Assembly: GCA_020832665.1 (NCBI GenBank)
Contig: JAFIEG010000041.1
Coordinates: 1 to 37,225, forward strand
Reading direction: 5' to 3'
From: Pararhodobacter sp.
GTDB taxonomy: Bacteria; Pseudomonadota; Alphaproteobacteria; Rhodobacterales; Rhodobacteraceae
DNA length: 37,225 nt
Of the stretch, positions 5,991 to 30,741 are shown in pieces; positions within the stretch are counted from its first letter, which is position 1; each line of letters begins with the position of its first letter. Both the position numbers and the translations under genes were made by a program. The notes under the pieces are model-generated. The model was not told the origin of the DNA. It did not search any database and worked only from the letters and a program-made list of their open reading frames with translations.

Positions 5991-6033
5991 TACCCATGAG
6001 CCGAATTCACGCCGATTGACGGAGACCATCGCC

Positions 6034-7395
6034 ATGACCGACCAGAGCCTGCCACGCGGCATGATCCGCGCCAGCAACACCGCCGGCACGCATGAGGGCT
6101 ACATGCCCGGCTTCGGCAATGATTTCGAAACCGAGGCCCTGCCCGGCGCCCTGCCCCAGAGCCAGAACAGCCCGCAGAAATGCGAATACGGCCTGTACGC
6201 CGAGCAGCTTTCGGGCACCGCCTTCACCCAGCCCCGGCCCGAGCGCGCCTGGTGCTATCGCATCCGCCCCTCGGTGCGCCACACATCGCGTTTCAAGAAG
6301 ATCGATCTGCCCTACTGGAAGACCGCGCCGCATATTCCCGAGGACGTGATCAGCCTCGGCCAGTATCGCTGGGACCCGGTGGCGCTGCCGGGCAAGGGCG
6401 AGGGTTATACCTGGCTGACCGGCATGCGCTCGATGACCACGGCGGGCGATGTGAACACGCAGGTGGGCATGGCCGCGCATGTCTATCTGGTTACCGATTC
6501 GATGGTCGATGAATATTTCTACTCGGCTGACAGCGAATTGCTGGTGGTGCCGCAGGAGGGCCGCCTGCGCTTTTGCACCGAGCTGGGCATCATCTATATC
6601 GAACCCAAGGAAATCGCCATCCTGCCGCGCGGGCTTCTGTACCGTGTCGAGGTGCTGGAAGGGCCCTGCCGCGGCTTTGTCTGCGAGAATTACGGCCAGA
6701 AATTCGAACTGCCCCATCGCGGCCCCATCGGCGCCAACTGCCTGGCCAATCCGCGTGATTTCAAATCGCCCGTCGCCGCCTTCGAGGACCGCGACGCGAA
6801 AAGCCGCGTGGTGATCAAATGGTGCGGCCAGTTCCACGAAACCTTCATCGGCCATTCGCCGCTCGATGTCGTGGCTTGGCATGGCAACTATGCGCCCTGC
6901 AAGTATGATCTGCGCACATACTCGCCCGTCGGCGCCATCCTCTTCGACCACCCCGACCCGTCGATCTTCACCGTGCTCACCGCGCCCTCAGGCCAGCCGG
7001 GCGTGGCGAATATCGATTTCGTGCTCTTCCGCGAGCGCTGGCTGGTGGCCGAGCACAGCTTCCGCCCGCCCTGGTATCACAAGAACATCATGTCCGAGCT
7101 GATGGGCAACATCTACGGCCAGTATGACGCCAAACCGCAGGGCTTCGTGCCCGGCGCCATGAGCCTGCACAACTGCATGCTGCCCCACGGGCCCGACCGC
7201 GACGCCTTCGAAGGCGCCTCGAATGCCGAGTTGCAGCCCCACAAGCTGGACAATACCATGTCCTTCATGTTCGAAACGCGCTTCCCGCAGCATCTGACCG
7301 AATACGCCGCCACCGAGGCGCCGCTGCAGGATGACTACATCGATTGCTGGACTTCGCTGGAAAAGAAGTTCGACGGCACACCGGGGGTGAAATGA
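6034..7395 (+). CDS. hmgA: Homogentisate 1,2-dioxygenase
   Basis: A non-haem Fe(II) enzyme that opens the homogentisate ring to 4-maleylacetoacetate in tyrosine/phenylalanine breakdown. The 453-residue product has the family landmarks [19 protein letters not shown] near the N terminus and [16 protein letters not shown] near residues 348-362. The predicted iron ligands are H349, E355 and H385 (MLPHGPD). Their spacing of 6 and 30 is identical to H335, E341 and H371 of the human enzyme. The ATG at 6034 has GGAG 9 nt upstream; a TTG 18 nt earlier is less likely. It is the first gene of a rightward operon and overlaps maiA by 4 nt (ATGA). Confidence 0.97.
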
Positions 7396-8024
7396 AACTG
7401 TATACTTTCTGGCGTTCGACCGCCGCTTATCGGGTGCGCATCGCGCTCAATCTCAAGGGAATCGAGCGCGAGGAGGTGTTCGTCTCATTGCCCGGCGGTG
7501 CGCATCGCGCCCCCGACTACACCGCACTGAACCCGCAGCAATTGCTGCCGGCGCTGGAATTGCCCGGCGGGCAGGTGCTGTCGCAATCGCTGGCGATCAT
7601 CGATTGGCTGGAGGCCGCACACCCGAAGCCCGCGCTGCTGCCCGCCGACCCGCTGGAACGCGCGCGCGTGCTGGAAGTGGCGCATGTGGTGGCGATGGAT
7701 ATTCACCCGGTCAACAATCTGCGCGTGGTGCAGCATCTGGCCAAGAATTTCGGCGCCGATGACGATGCCCGCCAGGCCTGGATGCAGCACTGGATGCGCC
7801 TTGGGTTCGATGCCATCGAACCGCGCCTTGCCGGCACCCGCTTTGCCTTTTCCGACACCGAACCGGGGCTTGCGGATATCTGCCTGGTGCCGCAATTGTA
7901 CAATGCGCATCGCTGGGGGCTGGACATGAGCCCCTGGCCGAAGATCGCGGCGATCGGCGTGGCCTGCCTTGCCCTGCCCGCCTTTGCCGATGCCGCGCCC
8001 GAGGCCCAGCCCGACGCGGGCTGA
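7392..8024 (+). CDS. maiA: Maleylacetoacetate / maleylpyruvate isomerase, zeta-class GST
   Basis: A glutathione-dependent cis-trans isomerase that converts maleylacetoacetate to fumarylacetoacetate. It has 210 residues: an N-terminal thioredoxin-fold GSH-binding domain ([19 protein letters not shown], then [11 protein letters not shown] and QSLAIIDWL) and a helical C-terminal domain ([21 protein letters not shown]). The usual zeta motif SSCSWRVR is here STAAYRVR: the active-site Cys position is Ala, while the leading Ser is kept. From memory, this and the overall sequence are closer to NagL-type maleylpyruvate isomerases than to eukaryotic MAAI, so it may also serve the gentisate pathway at 27758-30701. 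Its ATG overlaps the hmgA stop. Confidence 0.92.
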
Positions 8025-8041
8025 AAAATGAAGGAACCGAC

Positions 8042-9304
8042 ATGCCGCTGATGAAATCCTGGGTCGAAAGCGCCAATGCGCCCGACAGCCCCTTTCCGCT
8101 CAACAATCTGCCTTATGGCGTGTTCTCGCGCCCTAATGAGGCGCCGCGCTGCGGGGTGGCGATCGGCGAGCACATCCTCGATATCACGGCGATGGAAAGG
8201 GCCGGGCTGATCCGGCTGGCCGATCATGCGGTGCTCGACAAGCCCGAATGGAACGCGGTCATGGCGCTGGGTCCCGATGCCTGGGCACGGCTGCGCACCC
8301 TTCTCTTCGGCTTCCTCGCCGAAGGCGCGGAACTGCGCGGCGAGGTCGAGCGCCATCTGGTGCCACTGGCGGGGGCGCAGATGCATCTGCCCTTCACCGT
8401 GGCCGAATTCACCGATTTCTACGCCGGCAAGAACCATGCCGAGAATGTCGGCACCATGTTCCGCGGCCCCGAACACGCGCTGCCGCCGAACTGGCTGCAT
8501 ATCCCCATCGGCTACAACGGGCGCGCCTCGTCGGTGGTTGTCTCGGGCACCGATATCCGCCGCCCCTGGGGCCAGCTCAAGGGCCCGCAGGACGAGGCAC
8601 CGCGCTTTGCGCCCTCGCAGCGCTTCGATCTCGAGCTGGAGCTTGGCGCCATCGTCGGCCAGCCCTCGCCCTTCGGCCAGCCGGTAAGCGTGGCCGAGGC
8701 CGACGCCATGATCTTCGGCTATGTGCTGCTCAACGACTGGTCGGCGCGCGATATCCAGGCCTGGGAATACCAGCCACTGGGGCCCTTCCAGTCCAAGGCC
8801 ACCGCCACCTCGATCAGCCCCTGGATCGTGAGTCGCGAGGCGCTGGAGCCCTTCCGCTGCGCCGGGCCCGAGCGGGTGCATCCGCTGCTGGATTACCTGC
8901 AAGAGCCCGGGCCCATGCTCTACAATATCGACATGGAGGTCGAACTCACCCCAAGGGGTGGCCAGCCTACAGTGATCGCGCGCACCAATTACCGCGAGAT
9001 GTATTATTCCTCGGCGCAGCAACTGGCGCATCACACCACCGCCGGCAGCGGCATGCGGGTGGGCGATCTTCTGGGCTCGGGCACCATCTCGGGGCCGGTC
9101 AAGGAAAGCCGCGGATGCCTGCTGGAGCTGACCTGGGCGGGCAAGGAGCCGGTCGCGATTGCGGGTGGCCAGACCCGCAGCTTCATCGAGGATAACGACC
9201 GCATCACCCTGCGCGGCGCCTGCAAGGGTGACGGTTTCACGCTGGGCTTTGGCGAATGCACCGGCGTGGTGCTGCCGGCGCTGGACAAGCCCTTCCGCCG
9301 CTGA
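8042..9304 (+). CDS. fahA: Fumarylacetoacetase
   Basis: This enzyme hydrolyses fumarylacetoacetate to fumarate and acetoacetate, the last step of tyrosine catabolism. The 420-residue length is typical. An SH3-like N-terminal domain precedes the FAH fold. Predicted metal and catalytic residues are D125 (TDFYAGKNHA), E198 and E200 (DLELELGAIVG), and D232 (NDWSARDIQAWEYQPLGPF), in the order and spacing of the mouse enzyme (D126, E199, E201, D233). It begins 17 nt after maiA and is the last gene of the hmg operon. Confidence 0.96.
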   Translation: MPLMKSWVESANAPDSPFPLNNLPYGVFSRPNEAPRCGVAIGEHILDITAMERAGLIRLADHAVLDKPEWNAVMALGPDAWARLRTLLFGFLAEGAELRGEVERHLVPLAGAQMHLPFTVAEFTDFYAGKNHAENVGTMFRGPEHALPPNWLHIPIGYNGRASSVVVSGTDIRRPWGQLKGPQDEAPRFAPSQRFDLELELGAIVGQPSPFGQPVSVAEADAMIFGYVLLNDWSARDIQAWEYQPLGPFQSKATATSISPWIVSREALEPFRCAGPERVHPLLDYLQEPGPMLYNIDMEVELTPRGGQPTVIARTNYREMYYSSAQQLAHHTTAGSGMRVGDLLGSGTISGPVKESRGCLLELTWAGKEPVAIAGGQTRSFIEDNDRITLRGACKGDGFTLGFGECTGVVLPALDKPFRR

Positions 9305-9467: not shown

Positions 9468-10673
9468 TCAGCTTCCGGTCATGGCCTCTTCGAGCGCGGC
9501 AAACGCATCGCGCAAAAGGGGTGCCTGAGTGGAGGCGGGCGCCCGCATGAAGTGCAGGAAAAAGAACACGAACCCGCGCCAGTCTGCCTCGGGGTCGGCG
9601 GGGTCTGCGAAATGCTGACGATACAGTGCCACGATCTCGGGCCAGGGCAGATCGGCGTGGCGGCGCCCTAGATAGTTACCGGCATCAAAGCCCCGGGGCA
9701 GGAAACCGCAGCCGTCCCAATCCACCACCCAGCCATCGGCCATGAGGTTGCCGAGGCTTGGGTCACCGTGGCAATAGCTGCGTGGCCCGGCGTCCAGCTT
9801 TGCCTGCCACTGCGCCAGGAGCGCCGGCATGGCCGCAGCACGCGCCGGCATCTCACTGCCCAGCAGCTTCAGCAATTGCCCGCGGCAACTGCCTAGGAAA
9901 TTCGGCTGATAGACCCATAAGGCGGCCTCAGGTGGAAGCGTGGTTTCGTCGAAGCGCTGCAACTGCCGCACCAGCGATGCCGCCAGGGCGAGCGGCTTGC
10001 CTTGCGAAACCGACAGATCGGCCCATTCGAAATACGCGGCCGCCAGGCAGCGCCCCTGAGCGACATGCACCAGCCGCGGGCTCCTGATCCCCTCGAGCCT
10101 GGGCAGCAGATGCCGCTGGGCGAACAGCATCTGTTTGATCGGCGCGCGGTTTTCACAAAGATATATCTTCTCGAACAGGCACTGCCCGTTCAGCGTGACA
10201 CGTCGATAGGCGTTGAGCGAACCATGGCCGACACCGGCCCCGCAAAAACCCTGCACCTGCAATCCCTCAGGCAGGCGCAACCACGGATCGTAGCGCACGA
10301 GAAGCCGCTCATAGGCCCGCTGTGCCTGTTCATTGCACCCCTGCAGCCCGATAAAGGCCGACACCAGCCGCAAATCATGCAAACCGGCCGGACGCTCGCC
10401 GTGAAAAGCCTCAAGCCGATCGGCGACCACCGCGGGCGCATTCCTTCTCGCCACGGCACGGACCGTTTTCCAGTCGGCTTGCGTCTCGCCCTGCTCGGCA
10501 AGCGCTTTGCGGCAATTCCTGACCGCGAGGTTGAGTTTCTTCGCCGGCAACAGCGGTTTGTCATTCCTTCGCAGACCGGGCGGCAGCAGGCGATTGCCCA
10601 GCCGGGCCATAATGCGGCGCAGCGTTCCCGGCGTGCCGCGAATGGCGGCGCTCGATCCGTCACGGAACGTCAT
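9468..10673 (-). CDS. APH-fold phosphotransferase-like protein, partner of the glycosyltransferase
   Basis: A 401-residue protein with the aminoglycoside/choline-kinase (APH) fold in its C-terminal two thirds. Key sites are a possible ATP-binding Lys, K169 (LFEKIY), the Brenner-type catalytic motif H302-G-D304-x4-N309 (CHGDPSLGNL), and the metal-binding Asp in VVDWDG (D318 or D320). The first 140 residues are a basic, helical region of no recognised family. It is cytoplasmic with no signal peptide. Its ATG overlaps the TGA of the upstream giant glycosyltransferase (ATGA), so the two are co-translated. Context suggests it phosphorylates a sugar, polyol or lipid-linked glycan made by the partner. 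Substrate is unknown, and drug resistance is not implied. Confidence 0.8.
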   Translation of the reverse strand: MTFRDGSSAAIRGTPGTLRRIMARLGNRLLPPGLRRNDKPLLPAKKLNLAVRNCRKALAEQGETQADWKTVRAVARRNAPAVVADRLEAFHGERPAGLHDLRLVSAFIGLQGCNEQAQRAYERLLVRYDPWLRLPEGLQVQGFCGAGVGHGSLNAYRRVTLNGQCLFEKIYLCENRAPIKQMLFAQRHLLPRLEGIRSPRLVHVAQGRCLAAAYFEWADLSVSQGKPLALAASLVRQLQRFDETTLPPEAALWVYQPNFLGSCRGQLLKLLGSEMPARAAAMPALLAQWQAKLDAGPRSYCHGDPSLGNLMADGWVVDWDGCGFLPRGFDAGNYLGRRHADLPWPEIVALYRQHFADPADPEADWRGFVFFFLHFMRAPASTQAPLLRDAFAALEEAMTGS

Positions 10674-13600
10674 GCAACCTCGCCCGCGAGTGCGCGGCGG
10701 ACGAAGTCGCATTCGCGCCATGGCACCGAGATGGCGGGATCGAAAACCGCTTCGCGGCCCTCGGAGACCAGGGCAAGATAGTTGCGATATTCTTCTGCGT
10801 TGTTGAAATGCTGCTGACGCGCGGCCTCGGCCACGGCCTTGGCGCGAAAGGCGGCGTTGTACTTGAAATGCGCGAAAACCAGATCGCGCCGGGCGCAGCG
10901 AATATCGGCAACGAAATGCAGGCCGGCCGACAGCCGCATCCAGGGCCGGTATTTCAGAAGCGCGAATTTCTGGGCCACGAACAGTTCGGCGCGCGAGCCC
11001 GCGATCAACCGGTGGCGCAGGGCGCTGGTGAAGACCGGCGCATCGGTGAACGGCCCCATCCCGCCCGAGACCGTCAGGAACGGCTCGTGATCGACATACT
11101 CCGCCTCGGTGAACGGATCGCCCGAGGAAAAATCGGCATCGGCGAGTGGGCCCTTGGGATACATGTCGAGCATGAAGACGCGCGCGGCATCGGCATCGGC
11201 AAAGGCCGGGTCGCCCTCGAGCAGGCCGGGCAGCCCGCCGCCTTGCCAGTCGGGGGCGGGGATCAGCAACTCGTCGGCATCGGCCATGAGCGACCACCGC
11301 CCGCCGCGAAACCCCGCCAGCAGCGCCTGTTGCCAGGCGACGCCGTAATGCGAGTGGCTGTATTCGGTATCGACCGAAAACAGCGCCACATCGGGCGCCT
11401 CGGCGAGCAGTTCAAGCGTGCCGTCATCCGAGCCGTTATCGGCGATCAGAAAGCCCTCGACCCCCAGCGCGCGGTAATGGGCCAGGAAATGCGGCAGCAT
11501 GAAGGCCTCGTTGCGCATGCAGGCCACCACCGCCACCGGCGCGGCGGCGGCACGCGCCAGGCGGGCATGCGGCGAGACCAGTTCCAGCGCGTTCGATCGC
11601 GCCCCCAGCCGCGCCGGCTGGTAGCTGGGCCAGGTCTTCTTCGGGCGCGGCACCGGCTTGGCCTTGCCCGCCTGCACCTCGGCCATTCGATCAACGCCAT
11701 CGAGATGGGCAAGCTTGATACCACTGCCACGAAACGGCAGGAAGCCGTTTTCCCATTGCGAAACCAGCGGCCCGCCTAACCGGCTGCGGCGCATCACGGC
11801 AACGCGGTAATCCTCGTTGGCAACGGTAATCCCTGACAGCGCCAACAGATCACCGACCATCTTGTCCTCCATGAAGGACCGCTGGATCAGTGCCTGCCCC
11901 TCGTAGCTGTCCGCCGCCGCCACCAGCGCGGCCATGGCGCGGCGCGAAAGCGCGTAGCCCGAGCCACCATCGGCATGACTTGAGGGTTCAGGCGACTTGT
12001 CCAGTTCAAGCTGCCCTCGTTCACTGCGCGACTTGGCCATGTGCCAGGTGCGGTTCATCTGGCCGCGCTGGCGGGTCAGTGGGCGGCCGTAATAGTCGAA
12101 CTTCATGTGACTCAGGCTGAAGAAATACGGCTCGGCATCGAGAAAGCAGTCATCGTCGATCTTGAGCAGATGCGCAAAGCCGGTATTGTCATGCACCCAG
12201 CGCACCATGGCGAGCGACTTCTGCGGCAGGCCCTCGTATTCGTCGGGTGCATCGAGATGCACCACATCGCCCTCGCGCCGCCCGTCACCATCACCGACAA
12301 AGACCAAGTGCGGCACGCCCAGCGCGCGCAGCGATTGCAGCCAGCTCTGGCGCAGGGCCGGGATGCGGCTGTCAAGATTGGGCCGGCACGAGCAGATGCA
12401 GACCAGCGTGTCGAACACAAACCGCCCGGCATCGGCGGGATCGGGGTTTTCCGGTCCGCCGGGCGCAGCGGGGCCGGCATGGGCGGGCGCGGCACCGGGC
12501 AGGTTTGCGGCGCCGGGCGCAAATTCCTGGCTCAAGCGCTCCATCAGCCGTTCGCTGCCCGGGGCCGCGCGCAGCGCCGACATGGCCAGCGCCGGCGCGG
12601 TCTCGCGCAGGATTGCGCCGCGATGTTCGGGGCGCCAATGCGCCACCAGCCCGAGCGAGGCCGCGATCAGCGCATCGGCCGGGGTAGTCTGTCCGCGATG
12701 CAGGAAAAAGGCTGCCAGCCGCCACAGCAGCGCCGGGGCCAGAAAGCCACCGTCACCGCTGCAAAGCGGCCTCAGCCGCGCGGCAAAGCAGGCCAGCGCC
12801 TCGGCGCCGGGGGGCGTTTCGAGCCGGGCCAGTTCGAGCGCCTGGCGCGCCACCGCTTCCTGCAGCGCGGCGTGCGAGGCGCGCGGCACGCCCTGCCAGG
12901 CGGTACCGATGGCGCGGCGCAGCGCCCGGCGGGTGCCGGTTTCGTCAAGCCCGGTCGGCGGCTCATCCCCGGCCTGGGGAAAGGCCAACTGGCGCAAGAT
13001 CGCCTCGTCAGGATCGAGCCCGGCATGCAGGCTGTCGGCCAGGTCCGGCAAGGCGGCGCCGACCGGCGCCAGCCCTGAAGGGCCCAGAAGATCGCGCCGG
13101 TATCGCGCGACATCGACATTGCCCAGCCGCGTGAACAGATCAAGCCGGCGCGCGATGGCGTCGCGGTCACCGCCACCGGCTTGCACCAGGGCGGCAAGCT
13201 CGCGAAAAGTCGCGCGTGCCGGCTTCATGCGCTCGGGCAGTTCCAGCCTGCCCTCGGCCTGGGCGGCATCGACCGCCGCCCAGAAGCCGGGCACCAGCGC
13301 ATGGCTGCGCAACAGCCGCCATACGAGTTCGTCATTCAGATACCAGGGCAGACTGTGGCGTTCGCACAAGATCTGCACCAGCGCGCCGATCAGCGCCCGG
13401 CAGGGCAGCCGCTCCCAGTAATCCGGCGCGCGCCTGTCGATGAAGTCGATAAAGGCGCGGATGATGGCGAGTCGTTCCATTGGACTGGGCAACCTGCCGC
13501 CGGCATCGGGGGAATACTGCGCCGCCTCGCGCGCCACCCAGGCCAGGGCGGGGGTAACGACCCAACCTTCCTGTGGTTGCGCCATCTCGGCAATCAACGC

Positions 13601-14917
13601 CGTCAGTGTCTGGAAATCGCCCTGGCAATACAGAAAGGGCAATACCGAGCTGTCATGCCAGATGTCGTTTCCGCGCGGTGCATGGGGGGGCAGCCCGCGC
13701 GCGTTGGCCAGCGCATGCAGCGCGCGCGGGTCTGCATGGATGCTGAACCACTCGCTCAGCCCCAGGACCAGCTCTCGCGCGGCGCGCGGACCAATGCCCT
13801 CGCCATCGATCAGCGCGGCCAGTTCTGCAGCCGGCTCGGAATCGGGGCGCGCTCGCATGGCGGCGGTGAAGCGGTTGCGCAGCGCCTGCGGCGGCGTTTC
13901 TTTTTGGCCTGGCAAGGCGGAATGCTGCCGGGCATCCGCCCGCGCTGACGGTGCCGCCGAGGCCGGCACGGCGCCGCCTTCGCCGAGCGTCACGGCACCG
14001 CCTTCGCCAAACAGCCAGTCACCCAGCCCGAAAAACGCCGCGCGCTCGGCAAGCGCGGCGCGCCCCGGCGCCGACAAGGCATCGACGATCCCGGCAAAGT
14101 GTGCATGCTCGATCGCCTGCAGGGCGAAGAGATCGTCACGCTGCAGTTTTGGCGAGCGCGCCATCGCCTCGAACTGCGCTTGCAGCCATTCGCGCGACAG
14201 CGTCAGGCGTGCATGCTCGCCGCCGCGCGCATCGACAAGACGCAACACCAGCGATTCGCCCGCGCCCTGCCAGATGCGCCCCGGCAACAGGCAACTCAGC
14301 GCATGCTCGCGCGCATTGGCACCGTCACCCGAGGCAAGCCGGTAGGGCATGGCGAGTTGCACCATCGGCAACTCGTCGCGCAGGTTTTCGGCGTGCACCT
14401 TCATGCCGGCAAGCTCGACGGCGTCGGCTTCGCCGAGACCGCGCAAAAGCAGTTCAAGCCGCTCGTTCACCGCCGGCCCGGCGGGTTGGTCAAGCCCCGG
14501 GCAATCCATCAGCAGGCTGCCCGGCACAAGCGGGCCGCGGATATCGACATGGGCAATACCGCCAAGCCCCGGAAAGCCGCGCCGCAGGAAGAACCGCCCC
14601 GTCCGAGCCGGCCGGGGCAGGGCGCCAAAACGCCCGATCAGCCGCCCATCCAGCCTGAGCGTCGCCCCGAGTGGCCCGAAGCGGATATCGACAGCCATCG
14701 TCGGCGCCTCGAAGCGCTCGGCAAAGATAATCTCGCGCCGCCAGCCCTCTGGCGCGCGTCGGTTGACCACGACCACGCCCTCGTTGCGTCGCAAGGACAG
14801 GTGAAAGGGAATGCGCCGAAACCCGTCATCATGGAAATCGATGTTGAGAACCGCTGCGTGCGTGAAATCCGCCTGGCAGTGGAAACGCGCGATCCGGGTG
14901 GTTTTGAAAGGAAGCAT
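10670..14917 (-). CDS. Multidomain protein: galectin-like domain, GT31-like and GT2-like glycosyltransferases
   Basis: A 1415-residue protein. Residues ~10-128 resemble a galectin carbohydrate-recognition domain: H39-x3-R43, N52, W59 and E62, where the N-to-W (7) and W-to-E (3) spacings equal those of human galectin-1 N61, W68 and E71. Residues ~160-830 are largely helical, of unknown family. Residues ~835-1090 are GT31-like (beta-1,3-galactosyltransferase type): R-x4-R-x2-W (RIPALRQSW), DDD metal motif in LLKIDDDCFL near 924, GGSGYALS, and MEDKMVG near 1015. Residues ~1128-1300 are GT2-like (VACMRNEAFMLPHFLAHY, IADNGSDDGT, DADELL near 1212). No signal peptide or membrane segment is evident, so it should act in the cytoplasm, perhaps building a surface glycan. 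GGAG lies 7 nt before the ATG. It is the first gene of a two-gene leftward operon. Confidence 0.85.
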   Translation of the reverse strand: MLPFKTTRIARFHCQADFTHAAVLNIDFHDDGFRRIPFHLSLRRNEGVVVVNRRAPEGWRREIIFAERFEAPTMAVDIRFGPLGATLRLDGRLIGRFGALPRPARTGRFFLRRGFPGLGGIAHVDIRGPLVPGSLLMDCPGLDQPAGPAVNERLELLLRGLGEADAVELAGMKVHAENLRDELPMVQLAMPYRLASGDGANAREHALSCLLPGRIWQGAGESLVLRLVDARGGEHARLTLSREWLQAQFEAMARSPKLQRDDLFALQAIEHAHFAGIVDALSAPGRAALAERAAFFGLGDWLFGEGGAVTLGEGGAVPASAAPSARADARQHSALPGQKETPPQALRNRFTAAMRARPDSEPAAELAALIDGEGIGPRAARELVLGLSEWFSIHADPRALHALANARGLPPHAPRGNDIWHDSSVLPFLYCQGDFQTLTALIAEMAQPQEGWVVTPALAWVAREAAQYSPDAGGRLPSPMERLAIIRAFIDFIDRRAPDYWERLPCRALIGALVQILCERHSLPWYLNDELVWRLLRSHALVPGFWAAVDAAQAEGRLELPERMKPARATFRELAALVQAGGGDRDAIARRLDLFTRLGNVDVARYRRDLLGPSGLAPVGAALPDLADSLHAGLDPDEAILRQLAFPQAGDEPPTGLDETGTRRALRRAIGTAWQGVPRASHAALQEAVARQALELARLETPPGAEALACFAARLRPLCSGDGGFLAPALLWRLAAFFLHRGQTTPADALIAASLGLVAHWRPEHRGAILRETAPALAMSALRAAPGSERLMERLSQEFAPGAANLPGAAPAHAGPAAPGGPENPDPADAGRFVFDTLVCICSCRPNLDSRIPALRQSWLQSLRALGVPHLVFVGDGDGRREGDVVHLDAPDEYEGLPQKSLAMVRWVHDNTGFAHLLKIDDDCFLDAEPYFFSLSHMKFDYYGRPLTRQRGQMNRTWHMAKSRSERGQLELDKSPEPSSHADGGSGYALSRRAMAALVAAADSYEGQALIQRSFMEDKMVGDLLALSGITVANEDYRVAVMRRSRLGGPLVSQWENGFLPFRGSGIKLAHLDGVDRMAEVQAGKAKPVPRPKKTWPSYQPARLGARSNALELVSPHARLARAAAAPVAVVACMRNEAFMLPHFLAHYRALGVEGFLIADNGSDDGTLELLAEAPDVALFSVDTEYSHSHYGVAWQQALLAGFRGGRWSLMADADELLIPAPDWQGGGLPGLLEGDPAFADADAARVFMLDMYPKGPLADADFSSGDPFTEAEYVDHEPFLTVSGGMGPFTDAPVFTSALRHRLIAGSRAELFVAQKFALLKYRPWMRLSAGLHFVADIRCARRDLVFAHFKYNAAFRAKAVAEAARQQHFNNAEEYRNYLALVSEGREAVFDPAISVPWRECDFVRRALAGEVA

Positions 14918-14995: not shown

Positions 14996-15117
14996 CGGTG
15001 CCGGCGCGGCGATGCGCGGCCGGGCTGCATGCCGGGCGGGAGTGCGCGCAGGGGGGGCTGCGCAAGGGCGATGCGATCGGGTATAGGCGTTCTGTCAGTA
15101 GCGAGCAGGCCGGTTTC

Positions 15118-17757
15118 ATGCACAAGGATACCCCGTTTCACGCCCAGGAAGCCGACGCCGCGCTCGAGGCGCTGGAATCGGGCGCCGAGGGGCTGAGTGG
15201 CGACAACGCTGCCCGGCGCTTGCAGGAACACGGGCCCAACAGGCTGCCCGAAGCGGCGAGGCGCAGCACGCTGATGCGCTTCATCGTGCAGTTCCACAAT
15301 GTGCTTATCTATGTGCTCATTGTCGCCGCCGGGGTGACCGCGCTCTTGGGACACTGGATCGATACCGCGGTGATTCTGGCGGTGGTATTGCTCAATGCCA
15401 TCATCGGCTTCGTGCAGGAGGGCCGCGCCGAGGCGGCGATGGAGGCGATCCGCTCGATGCTGGCGCCGCGCGCGGCGGTGTTGCGCGACGGCAAGCGGGT
15501 AACGGTCGATGGCGCCGATCTGGTGCCCGGCGACGTGGTGCTGCTGGAAGCCGGCGACAAGGTGCCGGCCGATCTTCGGCTCATTCGCGCGCGCGGGCTG
15601 GCGGCGCAAGAGGCCATCCTGACCGGCGAATCGGTGCCGGTGGAAAAGGGCACCGAGCCGGTGGCGGACAATGCGGCGCTGGGCGACCGGGCCTCGATGC
15701 TGTGGTCGGGCACGCTGGTCACGCAAGGCGCCGGGCGCGGGCTGGTGGTGGCCACCGGTGCCGAGACCGAGATCGGGCGCATCGGCGGCATGCTGGCCGG
15801 GGTCGAGCAATTGACGACGCCGCTGGTCGAGCAGATGAACCGCTTTGCGCGCTGGCTAAGCCTGTTCATCCTCACCGCGGCGGCGATGCTGTTTGCCTTT
15901 GGCATGTTCGTCGTTGGCTACGAATTCGACGAGTTGTTCATGGCCGTGGTGGCAGTGGCGGTCTCGGCCATCCCCGAGGGGCTGCCAGCGGTGCTGACCA
16001 TCACGCTGGCCATCGGCGTGCAGGCGATGGCGCGGCGCAACGCCATCGTGCGCCGTCTGCCCGCGATCGAGACCGTGGGCGCGGTATCGGTGATCTGCAC
16101 CGACAAGACCGGCACGCTGACCCGCAACGAGATGACCGTGGCGCTGGCCGAAACCCCGGAGGGGCGGATGAAGATTTCCGGCGAGGGCTACGCCCCCGAG
16201 GGCCGCATCGAGGGCGAGGGCAAGGCCGATGTCGAACACCTGGCCCTGGCAGCGGCGCTTTGCAACGATGCCGATTTGCATGAGCGCGAGGATGGCTGGC
16301 AAGTCGAGGGCGACCCGATGGAGGGCGCGCTGCTGGCCTTTGCCGGCAAGGCGCTGGGCGATGACCCGCGCGCCGGCTGGGAGCGTATCGACGCCATCCC
16401 CTTCGACAGCCGCCACCGCTACATGGCCACGCTCAGCGAAAAGGACGGCAAGCGGCTGGTGCATGTCAAGGGCGCGCCCGAACGGGTGCTGATGATGTGC
16501 GGGCAATTGCCCGATGGCGAGCCCCTGCGCGTGCAGAAATGGCACGAGCATGCCGACCGCCTGGCCGCCGAAGGCACGCGGGTGCTGGCGCTGGCGATGA
16601 TCGAGGCCGACGCGCTGGACGAAAAGGTCATCGATGGCGAGCTGACCTTTCTGGGGCTTGTCGGGCTGATCGACCCGCCGCGGCGCGAGGCCATCGAGGC
16701 AGTCGCCGAGTGCCACGCCGCCGGCATCGACGTGAAGATGATCACTGGCGATCATGCCGGCACCGCCGCCGCCATCGCCCGGCAGGTGGGGCTGAAGCAT
16801 TGCGACAAGGTGCTTACCGGCGCCGATCTCGAAGAGATGGACGATGCGCGCCTGGCGCAGATGGTGCGCGAGGTCGATGTCTTTGCCCGCACCACGCCCG
16901 AGCACAAGCTGCGCCTGGTCACGGCGCTGCAAAGCCACGGGCTGGTGGTGGCGATGACCGGCGACGGGGTCAATGATGCGCCGGCGCTGAAACGCGCCGA
17001 TATCGGCATCGCCATGGGGCAGAAGGGCTCGGAGGCGGCCAAGGAGGCATCCGACCTGGTGCTGGCCGACGACAATTTCGCCTCGATCGCGGCGGCGGTG
17101 CGCGAGGGGCGCACGGTTTATGACAATATCCGCAAGGTGATCGGCTGGACCCTGCCCACCAATGCCGGCGAATCCTCGGCCATCATCATCGCGCTGTTGA
17201 TCGGCGTGGCGCTGCCGATCACGGCACTGCAGGTGCTGTGGGTGAACATGATCACCTCGGTGACGCTGGGCATCGCGCTGGCTTTCGAGCCCACCGAGAA
17301 GGCCACCATGCAGCGCCCGCCGCGCGCGCGAAAGGCGCCGCTGATGACCGGGTCGCTCTTGTGGCATGTGGTGCTGGTGGGCGCGCTCTATGCCGCGGCG
17401 ATGTTCGGCATCTTCAACTGGGGCATCGGGCGCGGGCATGAGGTGGCGCATGGCCAGACGCTGGCCATGAACACGCTGGTTATGCTGAAGATCTTCTACC
17501 TGTTCCACATCCGCAATTTTCACGGCGAGAAGCTGAGCCTGGATATGGTCAAGGGCACCAGGGCGGTCTGGGCCACGCTGGCGGTGGCGGTGGCGGCGCA
17601 GGCGGTCATCACCTACACCCCCTTCATGCAGATCGCCTTCGGCACCAGCCCGGTGGCGCCGTTCGAGGCGGCGGTCATCTTCGGGCTGGGGGTGGTGTTC
17701 TATGTGCTGATCGAGGCGGAGAAACAGATCAGGCTGGCAATCAGCCGGCCCGATTGA
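15118..17757 (+). CDS. P-type (P2-like) cation-transporting ATPase
   Basis: An 879-residue inner-membrane pump with the full P2-type order: cation-ATPase N-terminal domain, M1-M2, actuator loop (ILTGESVPVEK), M4 (AIPEGLPAVLTI, E287), phosphorylation site CTDKTGTLT with D329, nucleotide-binding part (MATLSEKDGKRLVHVKGAPERV), hinge TGDGVNDAPALKRADIGIAMG, and M5-M10. In M5, N682 and E685 match calcium-site residues of SERCA. In M6 the SERCA motif VNLVTDG is replaced by VNMITSV, with Ser714 where the key Asp sits. The transported ion therefore cannot be assigned as Ca2+ with confidence. Start chosen at 15118 (MHKDTPFHAQ); an in-frame ATG at 14998 would add 40 Arg/Gly-rich residues. SD is weak. 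It stands alone as a single transcription unit. Confidence 0.88.
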   Translation: MHKDTPFHAQEADAALEALESGAEGLSGDNAARRLQEHGPNRLPEAARRSTLMRFIVQFHNVLIYVLIVAAGVTALLGHWIDTAVILAVVLLNAIIGFVQEGRAEAAMEAIRSMLAPRAAVLRDGKRVTVDGADLVPGDVVLLEAGDKVPADLRLIRARGLAAQEAILTGESVPVEKGTEPVADNAALGDRASMLWSGTLVTQGAGRGLVVATGAETEIGRIGGMLAGVEQLTTPLVEQMNRFARWLSLFILTAAAMLFAFGMFVVGYEFDELFMAVVAVAVSAIPEGLPAVLTITLAIGVQAMARRNAIVRRLPAIETVGAVSVICTDKTGTLTRNEMTVALAETPEGRMKISGEGYAPEGRIEGEGKADVEHLALAAALCNDADLHEREDGWQVEGDPMEGALLAFAGKALGDDPRAGWERIDAIPFDSRHRYMATLSEKDGKRLVHVKGAPERVLMMCGQLPDGEPLRVQKWHEHADRLAAEGTRVLALAMIEADALDEKVIDGELTFLGLVGLIDPPRREAIEAVAECHAAGIDVKMITGDHAGTAAAIARQVGLKHCDKVLTGADLEEMDDARLAQMVREVDVFARTTPEHKLRLVTALQSHGLVVAMTGDGVNDAPALKRADIGIAMGQKGSEAAKEASDLVLADDNFASIAAAVREGRTVYDNIRKVIGWTLPTNAGESSAIIIALLIGVALPITALQVLWVNMITSVTLGIALAFEPTEKATMQRPPRARKAPLMTGSLLWHVVLVGALYAAAMFGIFNWGIGRGHEVAHGQTLAMNTLVMLKIFYLFHIRNFHGEKLSLDMVKGTRAVWATLAVAVAAQAVITYTPFMQIAFGTSPVAPFEAAVIFGLGVVFYVLIEAEKQIRLAISRPD

Positions 17758-17856: not shown

Positions 17857-19068
17857 TCACCCCCCGCGAGGGATGACCCTATCGCCATCGCCCAGCGCGG
17901 CGGGCGGGAACAGCACCACCCCGGCGCCGGCTTCGAGCCCGCCTGCAAGTTCGGCCCGCCCCTCGGCCTGGCGGCCGATCTGGACCGGGGTCAGCCGGGC
18001 GCGACCTTCCTCGACGCGAAACACCGCCCAGCCGCCCTCGTGACGAAACAGCGCCGCCTGGGGCAGTTGCAGCACATCCTCGCCCTCCCACAGAACCAGC
18101 CGCACGAAGACGCGGTAACGATCGCCCAGGCCGGGGCGCGCCTCGGGCGGCGACAGCAGATCGAGCCTCAGGCGCACGCGCTGCTCTTCGATGCCCAGCG
18201 CCGAAACCCGGGTAAAGGCCGCCGGCTCGACCCGGCGCACGCGCGCCTGCAGATCGCCCTCGCCGCCCCAGCGCTCGACATGGGCCAGGGCGCCGGCGGG
18301 CACGCGCACGGCATCGGCCGAAAGCAGATCGAGCTCGATTTCCAGATCGGTCACATCGCCGATCGACAGAAGCGGCGCGCCGGCCTGCACCAGCCGCGCG
18401 CTGGCATCGGCCACTTCGAGCACGGTGCCGGTTTCGGGGGCGAGGATGCGCAGGCAGCATTCGCCCGGCTCGCCATTGGCCGCGATCTCGGACTCCGGGC
18501 CCATCAGCTGCGCCTGCGCGCGCATCAGCGTCGCGCGCTGCAGATCAAGCTCTTGATGCGCCGCCTCAAGCCCCTGGCGGGCGGCAACATGCGCGGCTTG
18601 CAGATCTTCGAGCATGCGTTGCGATATGGTGCCGCGCTCGGCCAGGGCGCGGCCGCGCTCAAACTGCGTGCGGGCGTGTTCGAGATCGGATTCGGCGCGT
18701 GCCAGCCGCGTCTCGGCCAGGCGCAGCGCCGCCTCGGCCTCGGCCACCGCGGCTTCGGCCTGGGCACGACTACGCGCATCCATCAGTGCCGGATCGGCCG
18801 GACGCATGATCGCAACCACCGTCTCGCCGCGTGTGACCGCATCGCCCACATCGACCGGCGAGCGCGTCACCGCGCCGGTGATCGGGGCGGTGATGGCATA
18901 GGGCTCGCGCACGCGGGTGACGCCCTCGGCCAGCAGGCTGACCTGCATAGGCCCGCGCGTGACCTCGCCCACATCCACCGCCGCCGGTTCCGGCCACAGC
19001 GCCCAGACCAGCGCGCCGGCCAGCGCCAGCCCGCCCAGACCCATCGAAGCCTTGCGCATGATACCCAT
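17857..19068 (-). CDS. HlyD/RND-type periplasmic adaptor of an ABC exporter
   Basis: A 403-residue membrane-fusion protein that links the inner-membrane ABC permease to an outer-membrane channel or to the periplasm. An N-terminal membrane anchor (residues ~9-26, GLGGLALAGALVWALW) is followed by the first lipoyl half (TAPITGAVTRSPVDVGDAVTRGE). Next come a long Ala/Glu-rich coiled-coil hairpin (~95-195), the second lipoyl half (ILAPETGTVLEV), and beta-barrel domains ending VIPRGG. A clear SD (AGGAGGG) overlaps the stop of the permease gene 9 nt upstream, so it is third in a leftward operon. The loop after the hairpin contains a CC pair (GECCLRILAP). Cargo is unknown. The arrangement recalls MacAB or DevBCA exporters. 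Confidence 0.88.
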   Translation of the reverse strand: MGIMRKASMGLGGLALAGALVWALWPEPAAVDVGEVTRGPMQVSLLAEGVTRVREPYAITAPITGAVTRSPVDVGDAVTRGETVVAIMRPADPALMDARSRAQAEAAVAEAEAALRLAETRLARAESDLEHARTQFERGRALAERGTISQRMLEDLQAAHVAARQGLEAAHQELDLQRATLMRAQAQLMGPESEIAANGEPGECCLRILAPETGTVLEVADASARLVQAGAPLLSIGDVTDLEIELDLLSADAVRVPAGALAHVERWGGEGDLQARVRRVEPAAFTRVSALGIEEQRVRLRLDLLSPPEARPGLGDRYRVFVRLVLWEGEDVLQLPQAALFRHEGGWAVFRVEEGRARLTPVQIGRQAEGRAELAGGLEAGAGVVLFPPAALGDGDRVIPRGG

Positions 19069-19077
19069 GCCGCCCTC

Positions 19078-21434
19078 CTATTCGCGTGCCTTCAGCGCCA
19101 TCGCCAGGTCAACCCTGTCGAGCCGCCGTCGCACCATCATCACCGAGCCCAGCGCCGCCAGGAACACGGCCAGCGCCGCCAGCGCGAAGGTGCGCTTGGT
19201 TATGTGAAACGGTATCTGGATGGTGTCGGTGGACATCGCCCCCACCAGCCCCACCGCCAGAAAATAGCCCAGCACCCAGCCCACGGGAACCGCCACCAGC
19301 GTGAGCAACATCATCTCGCCCACCAGCACGAAACTCACCTCGCCGCGGCTGAAACCCAGCACACGCAGGCTGGCCAGTTCGTAGCTGCGCTCGGATAGCT
19401 GGATGCGCGCGGCGTTATAGACCACACCGATGGCGATCAGCACGCCGATCAGCGTGTAGATGCCCACCATGGTCAACAGGTTCTCGCTGAGCGTTTCGTC
19501 GAACTGCCGGCGCACCTCGCCCCAGTCGGCCAGGCTGGCCACCGCCGGGGTTTCCTTGATGGCATTGTTGAGCGCTTCCATGCGGTCGGTTTCGACCATC
19601 AGATGGATCATGTTCACCTGCGGCGCCGTGCGCATGGCGGCAAACAGCGCCGGCGCGGCGATATGCGCTTCCTGCCCCAGCCCCTGATGGATGATCGCCG
19701 CCACCGGCAGTTCCAGCACCTCGCGCGGGGGAGCGAGCATTTCCACCCGCAGCATCTCGCCGGCGCTGATGCCAAGCGCGCGCGCCAGCATGTCGGGCAG
19801 CACCAGACCCTCGCCGGGCAGCGCCACCACGGTGCCGGCATCATCGACCAGCCGCGCCAGCTCGGCGCCCTCGTAATGGCCCTGCAGCGCGCTGAGGCGC
19901 TCGCGATGGCCGTTGACCAGCCGCACGGGCATGGTATAGGCGCCCTCGGCCATGCGCACGCCGGGTAGGGAATAGGCATCGCGCACAGCGCTTTCGTTCT
20001 GTGCCTGCGCCAGGACAAGGGTGATCTGCTGGCGGTTGGCCTGCTCGAACACGCTGTCGGCAAGCCGTTCCACCGCGTCGAACATGAAATACGACATCAC
20101 CAGCACACCCACCGAGGCCGAGACGCCAAAGAGCGTGATCGCCGCGCGCGCCGGCCAGCGGATGATCGAACGGAAGATCATCATCGTTGTCTGGCGCAGG
20201 CGCAGTCCGGTGAGCATCCGGTCCAGCCCGCCGCGGCCAAAGCTGGGCGGGGCCGGCGGTTGCATGGCCTCGGCCGGGGGCAGCTTGAGCGAGCCCCACA
20301 CAGCGCGCAGCCCGCCCAGCAGCACGGTGGCCATGCCCAGCACCGCCGAGATGACCAGCGCGCCGAAACTGAGATCGCGGATGATGAAGGGAAAGCGGAA
20401 GAAATCGCCGTAAAGGGCGATCATCGCCTCGGCGATCCACCAGCCGAAGCCCCAGCCCAGCACGATGCCGAGAAAGCCGATCAGCAGCGCCAGCTTCAGG
20501 TAATGCCCGGCGATCTCGACGCGGCCATAGCCCACCGCCTTCAAGAGCCCGATCTGCGTGCGTTCCAGCGCGATCAGCCTGCCCAGCACCATGTTGACCA
20601 GAAACGCCGCCACGATCAGGAAGATCGGCGGCATGAAGGCGGCCATGGCGCCAAGCTGCTGCAACTCGCCATCGAGAAAGGAATGCGACACCTGCCGCTC
20701 GCGCCCATGCGCGCCGGTGCCGCCGTAAGGATCGAGTAGCCCGTCAAGCGCGACGATCACCGCGCGCTCATCGGCATCGCGGGTCAGGCGCAGCGAAAGC
20801 TGGTTGATGGCGCCGGCCATGTCCATCGCCGCCGCCGCCGCGGCCTCGTTCATCCAGATCAGGCCGAAACGGCGGTCATCGGGCATGAGCGCGCCGGGTG
20901 CCATGGTGTAGATGAATTCGGGGCTGAGCACCCAGCCGGTGACCTCCATCTCGCGCAACTGGCCGTTGAGCACGCCGCGAAAGCGGCTGCCCGGCACCAG
21001 CCCGTGCGCCTCGCCGAAGGGTTCGTTGATCGCCACCTCATGGGGGCGGTCGGGCTCGGGCAGGCGGCCTGCTCGCAAGAGCGGCGTGTTGAGCGTGGCG
21101 CCATTCGGCGGCAGCGAAAGAACCTGCGCGGTGGCGGGCTCGGTCATGCTGTCGATATCGAGCACGGCACTGAAGCCGATGCGCCCCTCGGCCTGGGCCA
21201 CGCCATCGATCTGCGCGGCGGCCTCGACCACGGCCACCGGGGCGCGGGTCATGGAAACGAAGACATCGGCAAAGCGGTGGCGCTCGTAATAGGCGGCCTG
21301 GGTTTGCACCAGCGTGCGCTGGGTGGACTGGGCGCCGACCAGCACCATGATGCCGCAGCCCAGCACAAGCGCAATGGCCAGTGTCTGCGCCCAGATGCGG
21401 CGCAGGTCGCGCAGCATCTTTCGATCCAGCGCCC

Positions 21435-21438
<4 letters not shown>
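19078..21438 (-). CDS. ABC exporter permease with two FtsX domains
   Basis: A 786-residue inner-membrane protein. It has an N-terminal membrane helix ([19 protein letters not shown]), a large periplasmic MacB-like region (~45-250), and a first FtsX domain ([20 protein letters not shown] to about 390). A second helix and periplasmic region follow, then a second FtsX domain ([34 protein letters not shown], to the C terminus). This two-FtsX form is typical of exporters of lipids, lipoproteins or peptides that work from the periplasmic side. The start is GTG, overlapping the ATPase stop in GTGA. It is the second gene of the ATPase-permease-adaptor operon. Confidence 0.9.
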
Positions 21439-22169
<731 letters not shown>

Positions 22170-22224
22170 GTTCCCATCTGCCTTCCAACAGGCCGCGTCA
22201 TCGGCCATGACAACACCGCCTGCC

Positions 22225-22267
22225 TTGATCTGGCGCAAAGTTTCGTGCCGGCATGACCTCGGTCATG
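22225..22267. promoter_or_regulatory. FNR-like half site and perfect dyad in the ABC/ftsH divergent gap
   Basis: TTGATCTGGCGCAA (22225-22238) resembles an FnrL/CRP-type box, with one good half (TTGAT) and one poor half. CATGACC-TC-GGTCATG (22252-22267) is a perfect 7+7 inverted repeat 27 nt before the ftsH start. Both lie in the 125-bp gap between divergent genes and could coordinate exporter and protease. Evidence is sequence symmetry only. Confidence 0.35.
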
Positions 22268-27117: not shown

Positions 27118-27582
27118 ATGTTCCTGAAGGGATATCTGCCCTATCGGCTGAATCTTCTGGCCGAGTTGACCTCGGAAAGCACGCGCCAGATATACCGCCG
27201 CCGGCACGGGTTGACGCGGCCGGAATGGCGGGTGCTGGTAAATCTGGCTGAATCCCCCTCACTGACCGCAAGCGAACTTTGCGCGCTGGTGCCCGCGCAC
27301 AAGACCAAGATCAGCCGGGCGCTGGTGGCGCTGGAACGGCGTGGCTGGGTGAAGCGCGAGAGCGATGCGCGCGACCGGCGCGTGAGCCATGCCGCGCTCA
27401 CGCCGCGCGGACGTAGCGCTTTTGCGCGCATCCGCCCCGAGATGGAGGCCGCGACCGAGGCCATGCTGGCGCCGCTCGGCGCAGAGGACCGGCGCAAGAT
27501 CGACGAAGGGCTCGCGGTGCTCGAACGGCTGTTCGAGCGTGCCCCGCCGGCCACAGGGCCGGGTGCGGGAAATCGCGACTGA
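27118..27582 (+). CDS. MarR-family regulator of the MBL/FAD module
   Basis: A 154-residue MarR protein. It has an N-terminal dimerisation helix (FLKGYLPYRLNLLAELTSES), then LTRPEWRVLVNLAES, the recognition region (VPAHKTKISRALVALERRGWV), and wing (SDARDRRVSHAALTPRGRSAF). The N terminus FLPYRLNLLAE-like pattern is shared with hmgR (FLPYRLAAAAARI), suggesting the two regulators are related. It is divergent from the MBL-fold gene and probably represses that operon until an aromatic ligand binds. No good SD precedes the ATG at 27118, and in-frame alternatives upstream are blocked by a stop, so translation may be weak or leaderless. Confidence 0.88.
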   Translation: MFLKGYLPYRLNLLAELTSESTRQIYRRRHGLTRPEWRVLVNLAESPSLTASELCALVPAHKTKISRALVALERRGWVKRESDARDRRVSHAALTPRGRSAFARIRPEMEAATEAMLAPLGAEDRRKIDEGLAVLERLFERAPPATGPGAGNRD

Positions 27583-27593
27583 CACCGCAACCT

Positions 27594-27696
27594 GTTGATT
27601 ACCTTGCCGGCACGGCCGGGCAAACAAGCCAAGGTTTCGGAACCAATCAACCGAACTCGGCATGGGTGGCGAACCCGTCTGGAGCGTGTAGCGCTC
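27594..27696. other. Structured convergent intergenic segment (branched inverted repeats)
   Basis: In the 175-bp gap between marR and the convergent monooxygenase gene, GTTGATT (27594-27600) pairs with AATCAAC (27645-27651). This encloses CCTTG/CAAGG (27602-27606 with 27630-27634) and a GGTT-TCGG-AACC hairpin (27633-27644). A further GAGCG-TGTAG-CGCTC hairpin (27682-27696) is followed by a pyrimidine-rich stretch. The enclosed CCTTG/CAAGG stem and the TCGG-loop hairpin share two bases, so they compete at that edge. It could be a composite terminator or a small structured RNA; no gene is visible. Confidence 0.4.
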
Positions 27697-27757
27697 TAGC
27701 CTTCTGTTTCCGCATGCCTTTATTCGAAAGCCCTGTTCCCACCTTGCGCGACATTCT

Positions 27758-28975: not shown

Positions 28976-29670
28976 GCCGGCTCACCGATGCTTAGCGAGA
29001 CATTTTCCAGCCCGTCGATGCCGCCCTCGATAACATCGCCTGGCTGCACCGGGCCCACACCCGCCGGCGTGCCTGTCATGATGATGTCGCCGGCATCGAG
29101 ATGGTAGAATTTCGACAGATCGGCGATGATCTCGGGCACGGAATGGATGAGATCGGACAGATGCGCATCCTGCTTTGTCTCGCCATTGACCGTCAGCCAG
29201 ATGCGTTGCGAGCCCAGTGCCGCCACCTCGGCAGCACGGGTCATCGGCGCCAGCACGGCGGATTGCTCGAAATCCTTGCCCAGATCCCAGGGGCGCTGCT
29301 TTTCGCGCGCCTTGAGTTGCAGATCGCGCCTTGTCATGTCCAGCCCGCAGCCAAAGGCATAGACCGCACTCATCGCCTGATCGGCGCTCACGCGAAAGGC
29401 CGGGCCGCCCAGCGCCACCACCAGCTCCATCTCGAAATGAAAATTTTCGGTGCCCGGCGGGTAGGGCATTGCCCCGCCTGATTCCATCACCGCATGCGGC
29501 GACTTGGTGAAGTAGAAGGGCGCCTCGCGATCAACCGCCACGCCCATCTCGGCGGCATGGGCGGCATAGTTGCGCCCCACGCAGAAGATGCGGCGCACCG
29601 GATAGGCGGCCTCTTCGCCCTTCACGGCAAGTGTGGGCTGCGGGGCGGGGGGAAAGAGATAGGCGTTCAT
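28972..29670 (-). CDS. Fumarylpyruvate hydrolase (FAH-fold)
   Basis: A 232-residue FAH-superfamily enzyme that would split fumarylpyruvate (or maleylpyruvate) into fumarate (or maleate) and pyruvate, the last step of the gentisate pathway. It has the opening RRIFCVGRNYAAHAAEMG, the predicted metal ligands E80 and E82 (FEMELVVALGG) and D111 (GLDMTRRDLQ), and the end motif DIIMTGTPAGVGPVQPGD. It is much shorter than the fumarylacetoacetase at 8042-9304 and lacks its N-terminal domain. It sits between gentisate dioxygenase and the monooxygenase, each joined by ATGA overlap. The NagK-type role comes from family plus context. Confidence 0.9.
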   Translation of the reverse strand: MNAYLFPPAPQPTLAVKGEEAAYPVRRIFCVGRNYAAHAAEMGVAVDREAPFYFTKSPHAVMESGGAMPYPPGTENFHFEMELVVALGGPAFRVSADQAMSAVYAFGCGLDMTRRDLQLKAREKQRPWDLGKDFEQSAVLAPMTRAAEVAALGSQRIWLTVNGETKQDAHLSDLIHSVPEIIADLSKFYHLDAGDIIMTGTPAGVGPVQPGDVIEGGIDGLENVSLSIGEPA

Positions 29671-30701: not shown

Positions 30702-30741
30702 CGGGTTTTCCTCCTCGGGCTGGATATGGAATGCATACATA

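Follow-up and report, generated by a model that had tools for sequence, protein, structure and literature searches.

A galectin-family domain in a predicted two-site glycosyltransferase of Pararhodobacter sp. and its relatives in the Rhodobacteraceae

Introduction

Galectins are galactose-binding proteins known from animals, fungi, and plants, and they have been studied chiefly as eukaryotic lectins. In the plant enzymes GALT1-6, the galectin domain stands N-terminal to a GT31 domain, and we know of neither a solenoid nor a GT2 domain in these proteins. Among bacterial polymerases, WbbM of Klebsiella makes a polymer that alternates Galp and Galf, its locus has a UDP-galactopyranose mutase (UGM) gene, and its GT families are presumably different from those of the protein reported here.

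The sections of PMC4687291 that deal with GALT1-6 describe galectin (PF00337) and GT31 (PF01762, with a DDD motif) domains in one protein, three sizes (619, 673, and 681 aa), a predicted Golgi type II membrane topology, and the addition of galactose to hydroxyproline or N-glycans. It is for these plant enzymes, rather than for the animal ones named in the original prediction, that the combination of galectin and GT31 domains can be documented (PMC4687291, same sections). The text of PMC11231755 on Klebsiella O antigens presents the O2a polymerase WbbM as two GT modules in one chain, acting in a pathway for an ABC-exported polysaccharide, and several exporters whose ATPase (Wzt) carries a sugar-binding module for length or export control; its portion on WbbM mentions no galectin module. 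In the part of PMC12269835 on the Kingella galactan locus, PamC1 and PamC2 are GT2-family UDP-Galf transferases, one of them bifunctional; the GT2 family is the common element here, and that part mentions neither a galectin nor a GT31 domain.

The 1415-aa protein that we describe, from a marine-type bacterium, shares with GALT1-6, as presented in PMC4687291, a galectin domain and a GT31 domain with DDD in one chain, and with WbbM the presence of two GTs per chain. It differs from the plant enzymes in being bacterial, in having no membrane stretch, and in its spacer of about 700 residues and second GT domain; the plant enzymes act on protein-linked glycans (PMC4687291, same sections), unlike the activity proposed below. 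A literature search for bacterial galectins or for galectins paired with GT31 returned no description of a bacterial galectin-domain enzyme among the matches listed, and the Pfam family PF00337 may already have bacterial members.

Results

The window, i.e., the whole stretch of 37,225 nucleotides analyzed here, carries an ORF of 1415 aa (10670..14917, −; ATG to TGA) composed of galectin, beta, helical, GT31-like, and GT2-like modules. The protein is 46-57% identical to full-length relatives from the same genus. A membrane-spanning stretch is absent (maximum Kyte-Doolittle mean over 19 residues, 1.3), in agreement with the cytoplasmic location originally predicted. The start codon of a downstream gene for an APH-fold kinase-like protein (9468..10673, −; PF01636, E 1.4e-12) overlaps the stop codon in an ATGA, and the two genes are therefore probably cotranscribed. 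Among the loci compared, this APH-like gene has relatives in L019/L049 (same protein region) and in L030 (G204) but in no others. The 157-aa ORF at 10190-10663, which has no Pfam family and overlaps the APH-like gene, was rejected as spurious.

Residues 1-140 (14498..14917, −) are a genuine galectin-family domain, as judged from a PDB profile search, PF00337 matches in relatives, and an AF2 model compared by Foldseek. On its own, the window protein scores 17.7 bits against PF00337, under the gathering cut-off of 22.1 (E 0.071 for the whole 1415-aa protein, 0.0025 for residues 1-140 alone), and its single-sequence match to the fungal galectin CGL2 has E 0.052. Such single-sequence values are too weak, and galectin homology of this protein is therefore indicated through its relatives. 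Scanned singly, relatives exceed the cut-off (L014, 24.4; L050, 29.3; L011, 34.3 bits), and a PF00337 match at E <= 0.01 is obtained for 27/33 members (best, 3.5e-10). Profile A2, built from 33 relatives, retrieved 158 PDB sequences at E <= 0.001 (best, 5.2e-17); 59 of the 60 listed carry galectin names or synonyms, the other being the viral fibre protein 2wsu, which we take to be galectin-type. The domain model (pLDDT 93.0, pTM 0.87) gave 50/50 galectins among the Foldseek matches listed (best E 2.9e-7, TM 0.69), with identities of 13-22% in those 50 rows that mark the domain as a distant one. Both fold and homology thus bear out the galectin assignment: examined for the opposite outcome, no profile match and some other fold, the domain yielded galectin profile matches and a galectin fold.

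The galectin sugar-site signature (H39..E62; 14732..14803, −) consists of H39, S41, R43, N52, W59, and E62, all invariant in 35/35 aligned N-domains. H39, R43, N52, W59, and E62 lie where they had been predicted, with N-to-W and W-to-E spacings of 7 and 3, as in galectin-1. The H-to-R spacing of 4 is, on our assumption, likewise that of galectin-1, and R43 and N52 are 9 residues apart versus a presumed 13 in galectin-1, giving a shorter loop. In alignment A2 (33 rows), these six are the only invariant columns, at a mean column identity of 43%. Across 31 full-length rows, the domain has seven invariant columns, the seventh being N25, and six of the seven fall among what we take to be the seven galectin contact columns (hypergeometric P 5e-9 over 140 columns, treated as independent). 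Conservation of six contact columns in an otherwise variable domain suggests that the predicted sugar site is under selection.

The original prediction noted two differences at the site, N46 to Ser and R73 to Ile. Ser41 is invariant, and by alignment it matches the residue in CGL2 (HISIR) and a Toxascaris galectin (HISVR). The counterpart of galectin-1 R73, which we take to be the arginine two residues after the glutamate, is Ile64 here, Arg in 9/35 domains, and another residue in 26/35. CGL2 (PDB 1ul9; Foldseek rank 42) has the same galectin fold and, like the window protein, holds H-x-S-x-R, N, W, and E in the alignment; it is a free-standing lectin with an arginine two residues past the glutamate, presumably the galectin motif position, whereas the window protein lacks that Arg. 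The core site H-x-N/S-x-R, N, W, E is kept in 39/40 domains, including five plasmid copies. A Palleronia plasmid copy (L112) keeps the domain, has lost R43 and E62 in the alignment, and still has UGM nearby. The set of 35 N-domains was compiled after dropping L009 (in-frame stop), L038 (45 residues, stop inside), L016 (no frame scoring better than E 5.8 against the profile), L046-L048 (partial or weak), L049 (the L019 protein), L063 (same figures as L050), L059 and L065 (fragments), L029 and L030 (without the N terminus), and L031 (no galectin match); the near-duplicates L024/L025 (86%) and L051/L064 (91%) were retained.

About 700 residues separate the galectin and GT31-like domains. They comprise a second beta domain (residues 141-241; 14195..14497, −; strands within 148-241 in the AF2 model) and a modeled alpha-helical solenoid (residues 242-835; 12413..14194, −). 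The AF2 model of residues 141-835 has a mean pLDDT of 83.7 and a pTM of 0.61, with four short segments below 50. This part of the window sequence matched no Pfam family, its best E in a PDB profile search was 0.059, and Foldseek found no PDB match to the model at E <= 0.001.

The GT31-like (Galactosyl_T) domain (residues 836-1115; 11573..12412, −) matches PF01762 with 34.8 bits (cut-off 23; E 1.9e-8), as do 24/24 members at E <= 0.1 (best, 5.1e-14). Its best PDB sequence matches are the human GT31 enzymes B3GALT6 (E 4.2e-8) and B3GALT5 (E 9e-6), animal Golgi enzymes that, to our knowledge, have no galectin or GT2 domains. The catalytic acids of its motifs DDD (residues 921-923; 12149-12157, −) and EDKMVG (residues 1017-1022; 11852-11869, −) are each invariant in 32/35 rows, the other 3 being gaps. 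The GT2-like domain (Glyco_tranf_2_4; residues 1116-1412; 10682..11572, −) scores 86.1 bits against PF13704 (cut-off 27.5; E 2.4e-24). In its DADE motif (residues 1213-1216; 11270-11281, −), D1213, D1215, and E1216 are invariant in 31/35 rows, with gaps in the remaining 4, and A1214 is variable. The predicted presence of GT31-like and GT2-like domains in one chain is upheld by family matches and conserved catalytic acids alike.

The enzyme is sporadic in the Rhodobacteraceae and lies mostly within a polysaccharide locus (GT4, GT2, ABC export, and often UGM). Profile A1 matched 11/295 genomes across the family and 2/385 across the class, i.e., the genome of the window and a 45-residue frame with a stop. 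A PF00337 search across the phylum matched 0/299; it missed the window's own copy and matched none of 14 controls, so this zero carries no information on absence. By tblastn, 32 loci around galectin-bearing enzymes contain GT4 (26), a GT2 partner, separate or fused (24), KpsM-like (18), KpsT-like (18), UGM (17), and RTX (17) proteins. Six of these loci had been picked because of a nearby UGM; the other 26 hold GT4 in 20, GT2 in 22, KpsM in 12, KpsT in 12, UGM in 11, and RTX in 11. In L010, a gene of its own next to the enzyme encodes the GT2 partner, and the L013 chain carries it fused ahead of the galectin domain; judged by length and position, other forms (about 1800-2050 residues) have it in front as well. 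The G211 locus further includes galE/galU-type genes for epimerase and nucleotidyl-transferase enzymes (gal labels assigned by eye). In the window's genome, the gene is outside a polysaccharide cluster, with UGM, KpsM-like, and GT2-partner genes on other contigs.

Within the genus, UGM is present in 14/14 genomes with the galectin domain versus 1/4 without it (Fisher P 0.005, a test that, like the one below, ignores relatedness of genomes; genome completeness is 92% for G205 and 82% for G206). G208, a single case in this comparison, has an enzyme with a different N terminus, no galectin match, and no UGM. At the family level, 9/10 genomes with a GT31-type enzyme have UGM versus 53/280 without (P 5e-6, assuming that both searches drew the same 290 genomes), and by the N-domain profile 2/11 carriers (G606 and G614) have no UGM among the matches listed. 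The control dTDP-sugar gene PF00908 is not enriched (6/7 carriers versus 144/187 others, P 1.0), a control of limited power given its presence in 150/194 genomes; it omits the weak carrier G162, which has the gene, and scores G170, absent among the matches listed, as lacking it. On plasmids, 3/5 loci have no UGM within about 10-12 kb on each side, and UGM occurs in 315 plasmid records, the enzyme being matched in 19 (five of them covering 72% or more). UGM is thus not special to this enzyme type. The authors of PMC8256295 argue, in the part bearing on ligand recognition, that the hydroxyls by which galectins recognize galactopyranose are absent from galactofuranose; UGM therefore does not name the ligand.

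Discussion

We propose, with a probability of roughly 0.55, that the 1415-aa protein is a cytoplasmic two-site capsule glycosyltransferase or polymerase whose built-in galectin domain holds a nascent galactose-containing chain. Its GT31-like and GT2-like sites would build a galactose-containing surface polysaccharide for export by an ABC transporter. The N-terminal domain would bind a galactose within the growing chain and so prevent the chain from leaving the enzyme, allowing extension by each catalytic site in turn, with the beta domain and helical solenoid spacing the modules. We infer that both GT domains are active in a polymerizing mode and that the galectin domain binds sugar, with the nascent chain as its ligand. 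The gene neighborhoods fit the polymerizing or bifunctional enzyme first suggested.

A galectin domain that has lost sugar binding and is purely structural, either as a spacer formed by the beta-sandwich or as a docking surface for proteins, would be in keeping with the unconserved R73 equivalent, the Palleronia copy without R43 and E62, and the low identity to other galectins (13-22% over the 50 listed Foldseek rows). We nonetheless regard it as unlikely, because a spacer would not need six sugar-contact columns to stay invariant in 35/35 domains while the rest varies. The chances are slimmer for a chain-length or export checkpoint in which the domain recognizes a terminal or completed epitope, by analogy with the Wzt module. 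Many loci do have an ABC exporter, and Klebsiella O-antigen exporters achieve such control through a sugar-binding module of the ATPase (PMC11231755, text on these exporters), but the module here sits on a glycosyltransferase. The exporter seems to have no sugar-binding module of its own, since the two KpsT-like proteins scanned (217 and 219 aa) hold PF00005 alone.

We give least credence to an adapter or core enzyme whose GT31 and GT2 domains use a protein or lipid as acceptor, with no polymerization and with the galectin domain reading a galactose primer. Two catalytic domains per chain, and the fusion of a third GT2 in some relatives, resemble a polymerase instead, even if plant galectin-GT31 enzymes galactosylate hydroxyproline or N-glycans (PMC4687291, sections on GALT1-6) and many loci have separate GT2 and GT4 genes.

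Extended to the Rhodobacteraceae, the polymerase reading leads to a more tentative proposal, which we put at somewhat under even odds: cytoplasmic capsule polymerases of this family would have true galectin domains as built-in modules that hold sugar, and the domain would be retained in connection with a galactopyranose/galactofuranose polymer. If so, galectins would serve biosynthesis rather than signaling in bacteria, and bacteria and plants alike would possess the galectin-GT31 pairing.

Results

The minus-strand ORF at 10670-14917 specifies a 1415-aa protein in which, as originally predicted, GT31-like and GT2-like domains share one chain, both above the Pfam cut-offs (PF01762, residues 880-1033, E 1.9e-8; PF13704, residues 1135-1219, E 2.4e-24) and both with catalytic acids that are invariant wherever the column is present. 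The galectin domain proposed at its N terminus is weak in the window sequence alone, since PF00337 stays below its 22.1-bit cut-off (E 0.071 for the whole protein; residues 1-140 taken alone score 17.7 bits, E 0.0025). The call is nonetheless correct. A profile of relatives drawn from the family, the genus and named genomes matched PDB galectins at E 7.8e-14 with 20 sequences and at E 5.2e-17 with 33; 27 of these 33 match PF00337 at E <= 0.01 (best 3.5e-10), and three, each scanned singly, exceed the curated cut-off. The AlphaFold2 model of the domain (pLDDT 93.0) adopts a galectin fold, the best 50 Foldseek matches listed being galectins throughout (best E 2.9e-7; query TM 0.54-0.73). Residues 1-140 are thus a genuine galectin-family domain.

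Conservation centers on the sugar site. H39, S41, R43, N52, W59 and E62 are invariant across 35 N-terminal domains, with no further invariant column in the 33-row alignment; N25 is also invariant among the 31 full-length rows, where six of the seven invariant columns fall on galectin sugar-contact positions (P 5e-9). Equivalents of Ser41 occur in other galectins (HISIR in CGL2, HISVR in a Toxascaris galectin), and Arg occupies position 64 in only 9 of the 35 domains. The galectin domain is present in each of five additional copies located on plasmids (E 4e-21 to 3e-39). One of these five, from Palleronia (L112, 9547-14940), keeps the domain but has Q aligned at R43 and P at E62 and is, judging by its sequence, a natural site-loss variant.

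The AlphaFold model places a beta domain (residues 141-241) and a helical solenoid (242-835) after the galectin domain; residues 141-835 (mean pLDDT 83.7) gave no convincing family or fold match in Pfam, PDB profile and Foldseek searches. PF01762 matches the GT31-like domain in 24/24 members, and the best PDB sequence matches of this domain are B3GALT6 and B3GALT5. The invariant catalytic acids, together with a sequence in which no stretch looks like a membrane span, point to a probably cytoplasmic enzyme that has two predicted working sites.

The galectin-bearing enzyme occurs in 14 of 18 genomes of the genus, including G212, whose protein (L019) recurs unchanged within L049, and is absent from G202, G205 and G206, the G202 matches being GT2 stretches only. 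G208 encodes a relative (L104, 6141-10349; L031) whose galectin domain is replaced by another N-terminal region, with an ORF nearby that we labeled integrase-like by eye. Across the family, the N-terminal profile matches 11/295 genomes and the GT31 profile 10/290. The galectin-bearing form is found in Shimia, Roseobacter, Salipiger, Thalassobius, Pseudophaeobacter and Cognatishimia, among others, and on plasmids of Thalassococcus, Sulfitobacter, Tropicibacter and Palleronia. A full-length, 39% identical copy on a contig titled Bordetella petrii (L060) reflects either gene transfer or a mislabeled assembly.

The gene stands apart in the window's own genome, with UDP-galactopyranose mutase (UGM), a KpsM-like gene and a GT2 partner on other contigs (C36; C18, 62% identity; and C73, 54%, respectively). 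Upstream lies a divergent P-type cation ATPase gene (14998-17757, plus strand), beside an HlyD-like adaptor, an FtsX-type permease and an ABC ATPase (17857-22238, minus strand), a MacAB/Lol-like export set. Downstream, an APH-like gene overlaps the enzyme gene, followed by a plus-strand homogentisate cluster (6016-9304: HgmA, fumarylacetoacetase and a GST-family gene, by position maleylacetoacetate isomerase-like). Genes for a MarR regulator, an FAD-binding monooxygenase-type protein, an FAA-hydrolase and a cupin (27118-30740) look like a gentisate-type aromatic pathway.

In most relatives, the surroundings are those of polysaccharide loci. By tblastn, 32 loci around galectin-bearing enzymes contain GT4 (26), a separate or fused GT2 partner (24), KpsM-like and KpsT-like ABC export genes (18 each) and UGM (17), and some contigs are short, so an unmatched gene may still exist beyond the stretch. 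Six loci (L098-L102, L105) were picked for nearby UGM, and the L105 stretch does not include the enzyme itself; the other 26 hold GT4 in 20, GT2 in 22, KpsM and KpsT in 12 each, and UGM and RTX in 11 each. The GT2 partner adjoins the enzyme as a separate gene in L010 and precedes the galectin domain within one chain in L013 and other long forms. An RTX-repeat protein (~760-920 aa where measured), perhaps a secreted matrix partner, occurs in 17/32 loci (e.g., L098-L102, L105, L010, L012). Pfam matches at the G211 locus comprise an epimerase and a nucleotidyl transferase (galE/galU type by eye), a polysaccharide epimerase/dehydratase, RTX repeats, GT2, an ABC-2 permease, an ABC ATPase and GT4. 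Five annotated plasmid stretches carry sulfotransferases (5/5), an ABC transporter and a "sugar transporter" (4/5) and UGM (2/5).

Discussion

UGM (PF03275) accompanies the galectin domain in the genus (14/14 genomes with the domain versus 1/4 without); G208, listed as 100% complete, lacks UGM, a single case. Family-wide, UGM is present in 9/10 enzyme carriers versus 53/280 others (P 5e-6) and the control sugar gene PF00908 is not enriched, in tests that ignore shared ancestry. UGM also occurs without the enzyme in many genomes and plasmids. UGM produces UDP-Galf, and galectins read the hydroxyls of Galp. Galectin-9 is reported to bind Galf-containing arabinogalactan, although the authors of that work question whether the lectin contacts the Galf units themselves (PMC8256295). 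We infer that a polymer containing both Galp and Galf fits best.

The original prediction stated that some animal GT31 enzymes bear a galectin domain; the pairing that we could document is that of plant GALT1-6 (PMC4687291). Our literature search did not find this domain arrangement in bacteria, and a description may exist all the same; as far as that search goes, known domains appear here in an arrangement new for bacteria. Klebsiella WbbM is likewise a polymerase with two GT modules in one chain (PMC11231755), whereas the lectin module here sits on the glycosyltransferase. In the cytoplasm, the two GT domains would add sugars to a lipid-linked chain while the galectin domain would hold a galactose of that nascent chain, which would then leave through an ABC exporter.
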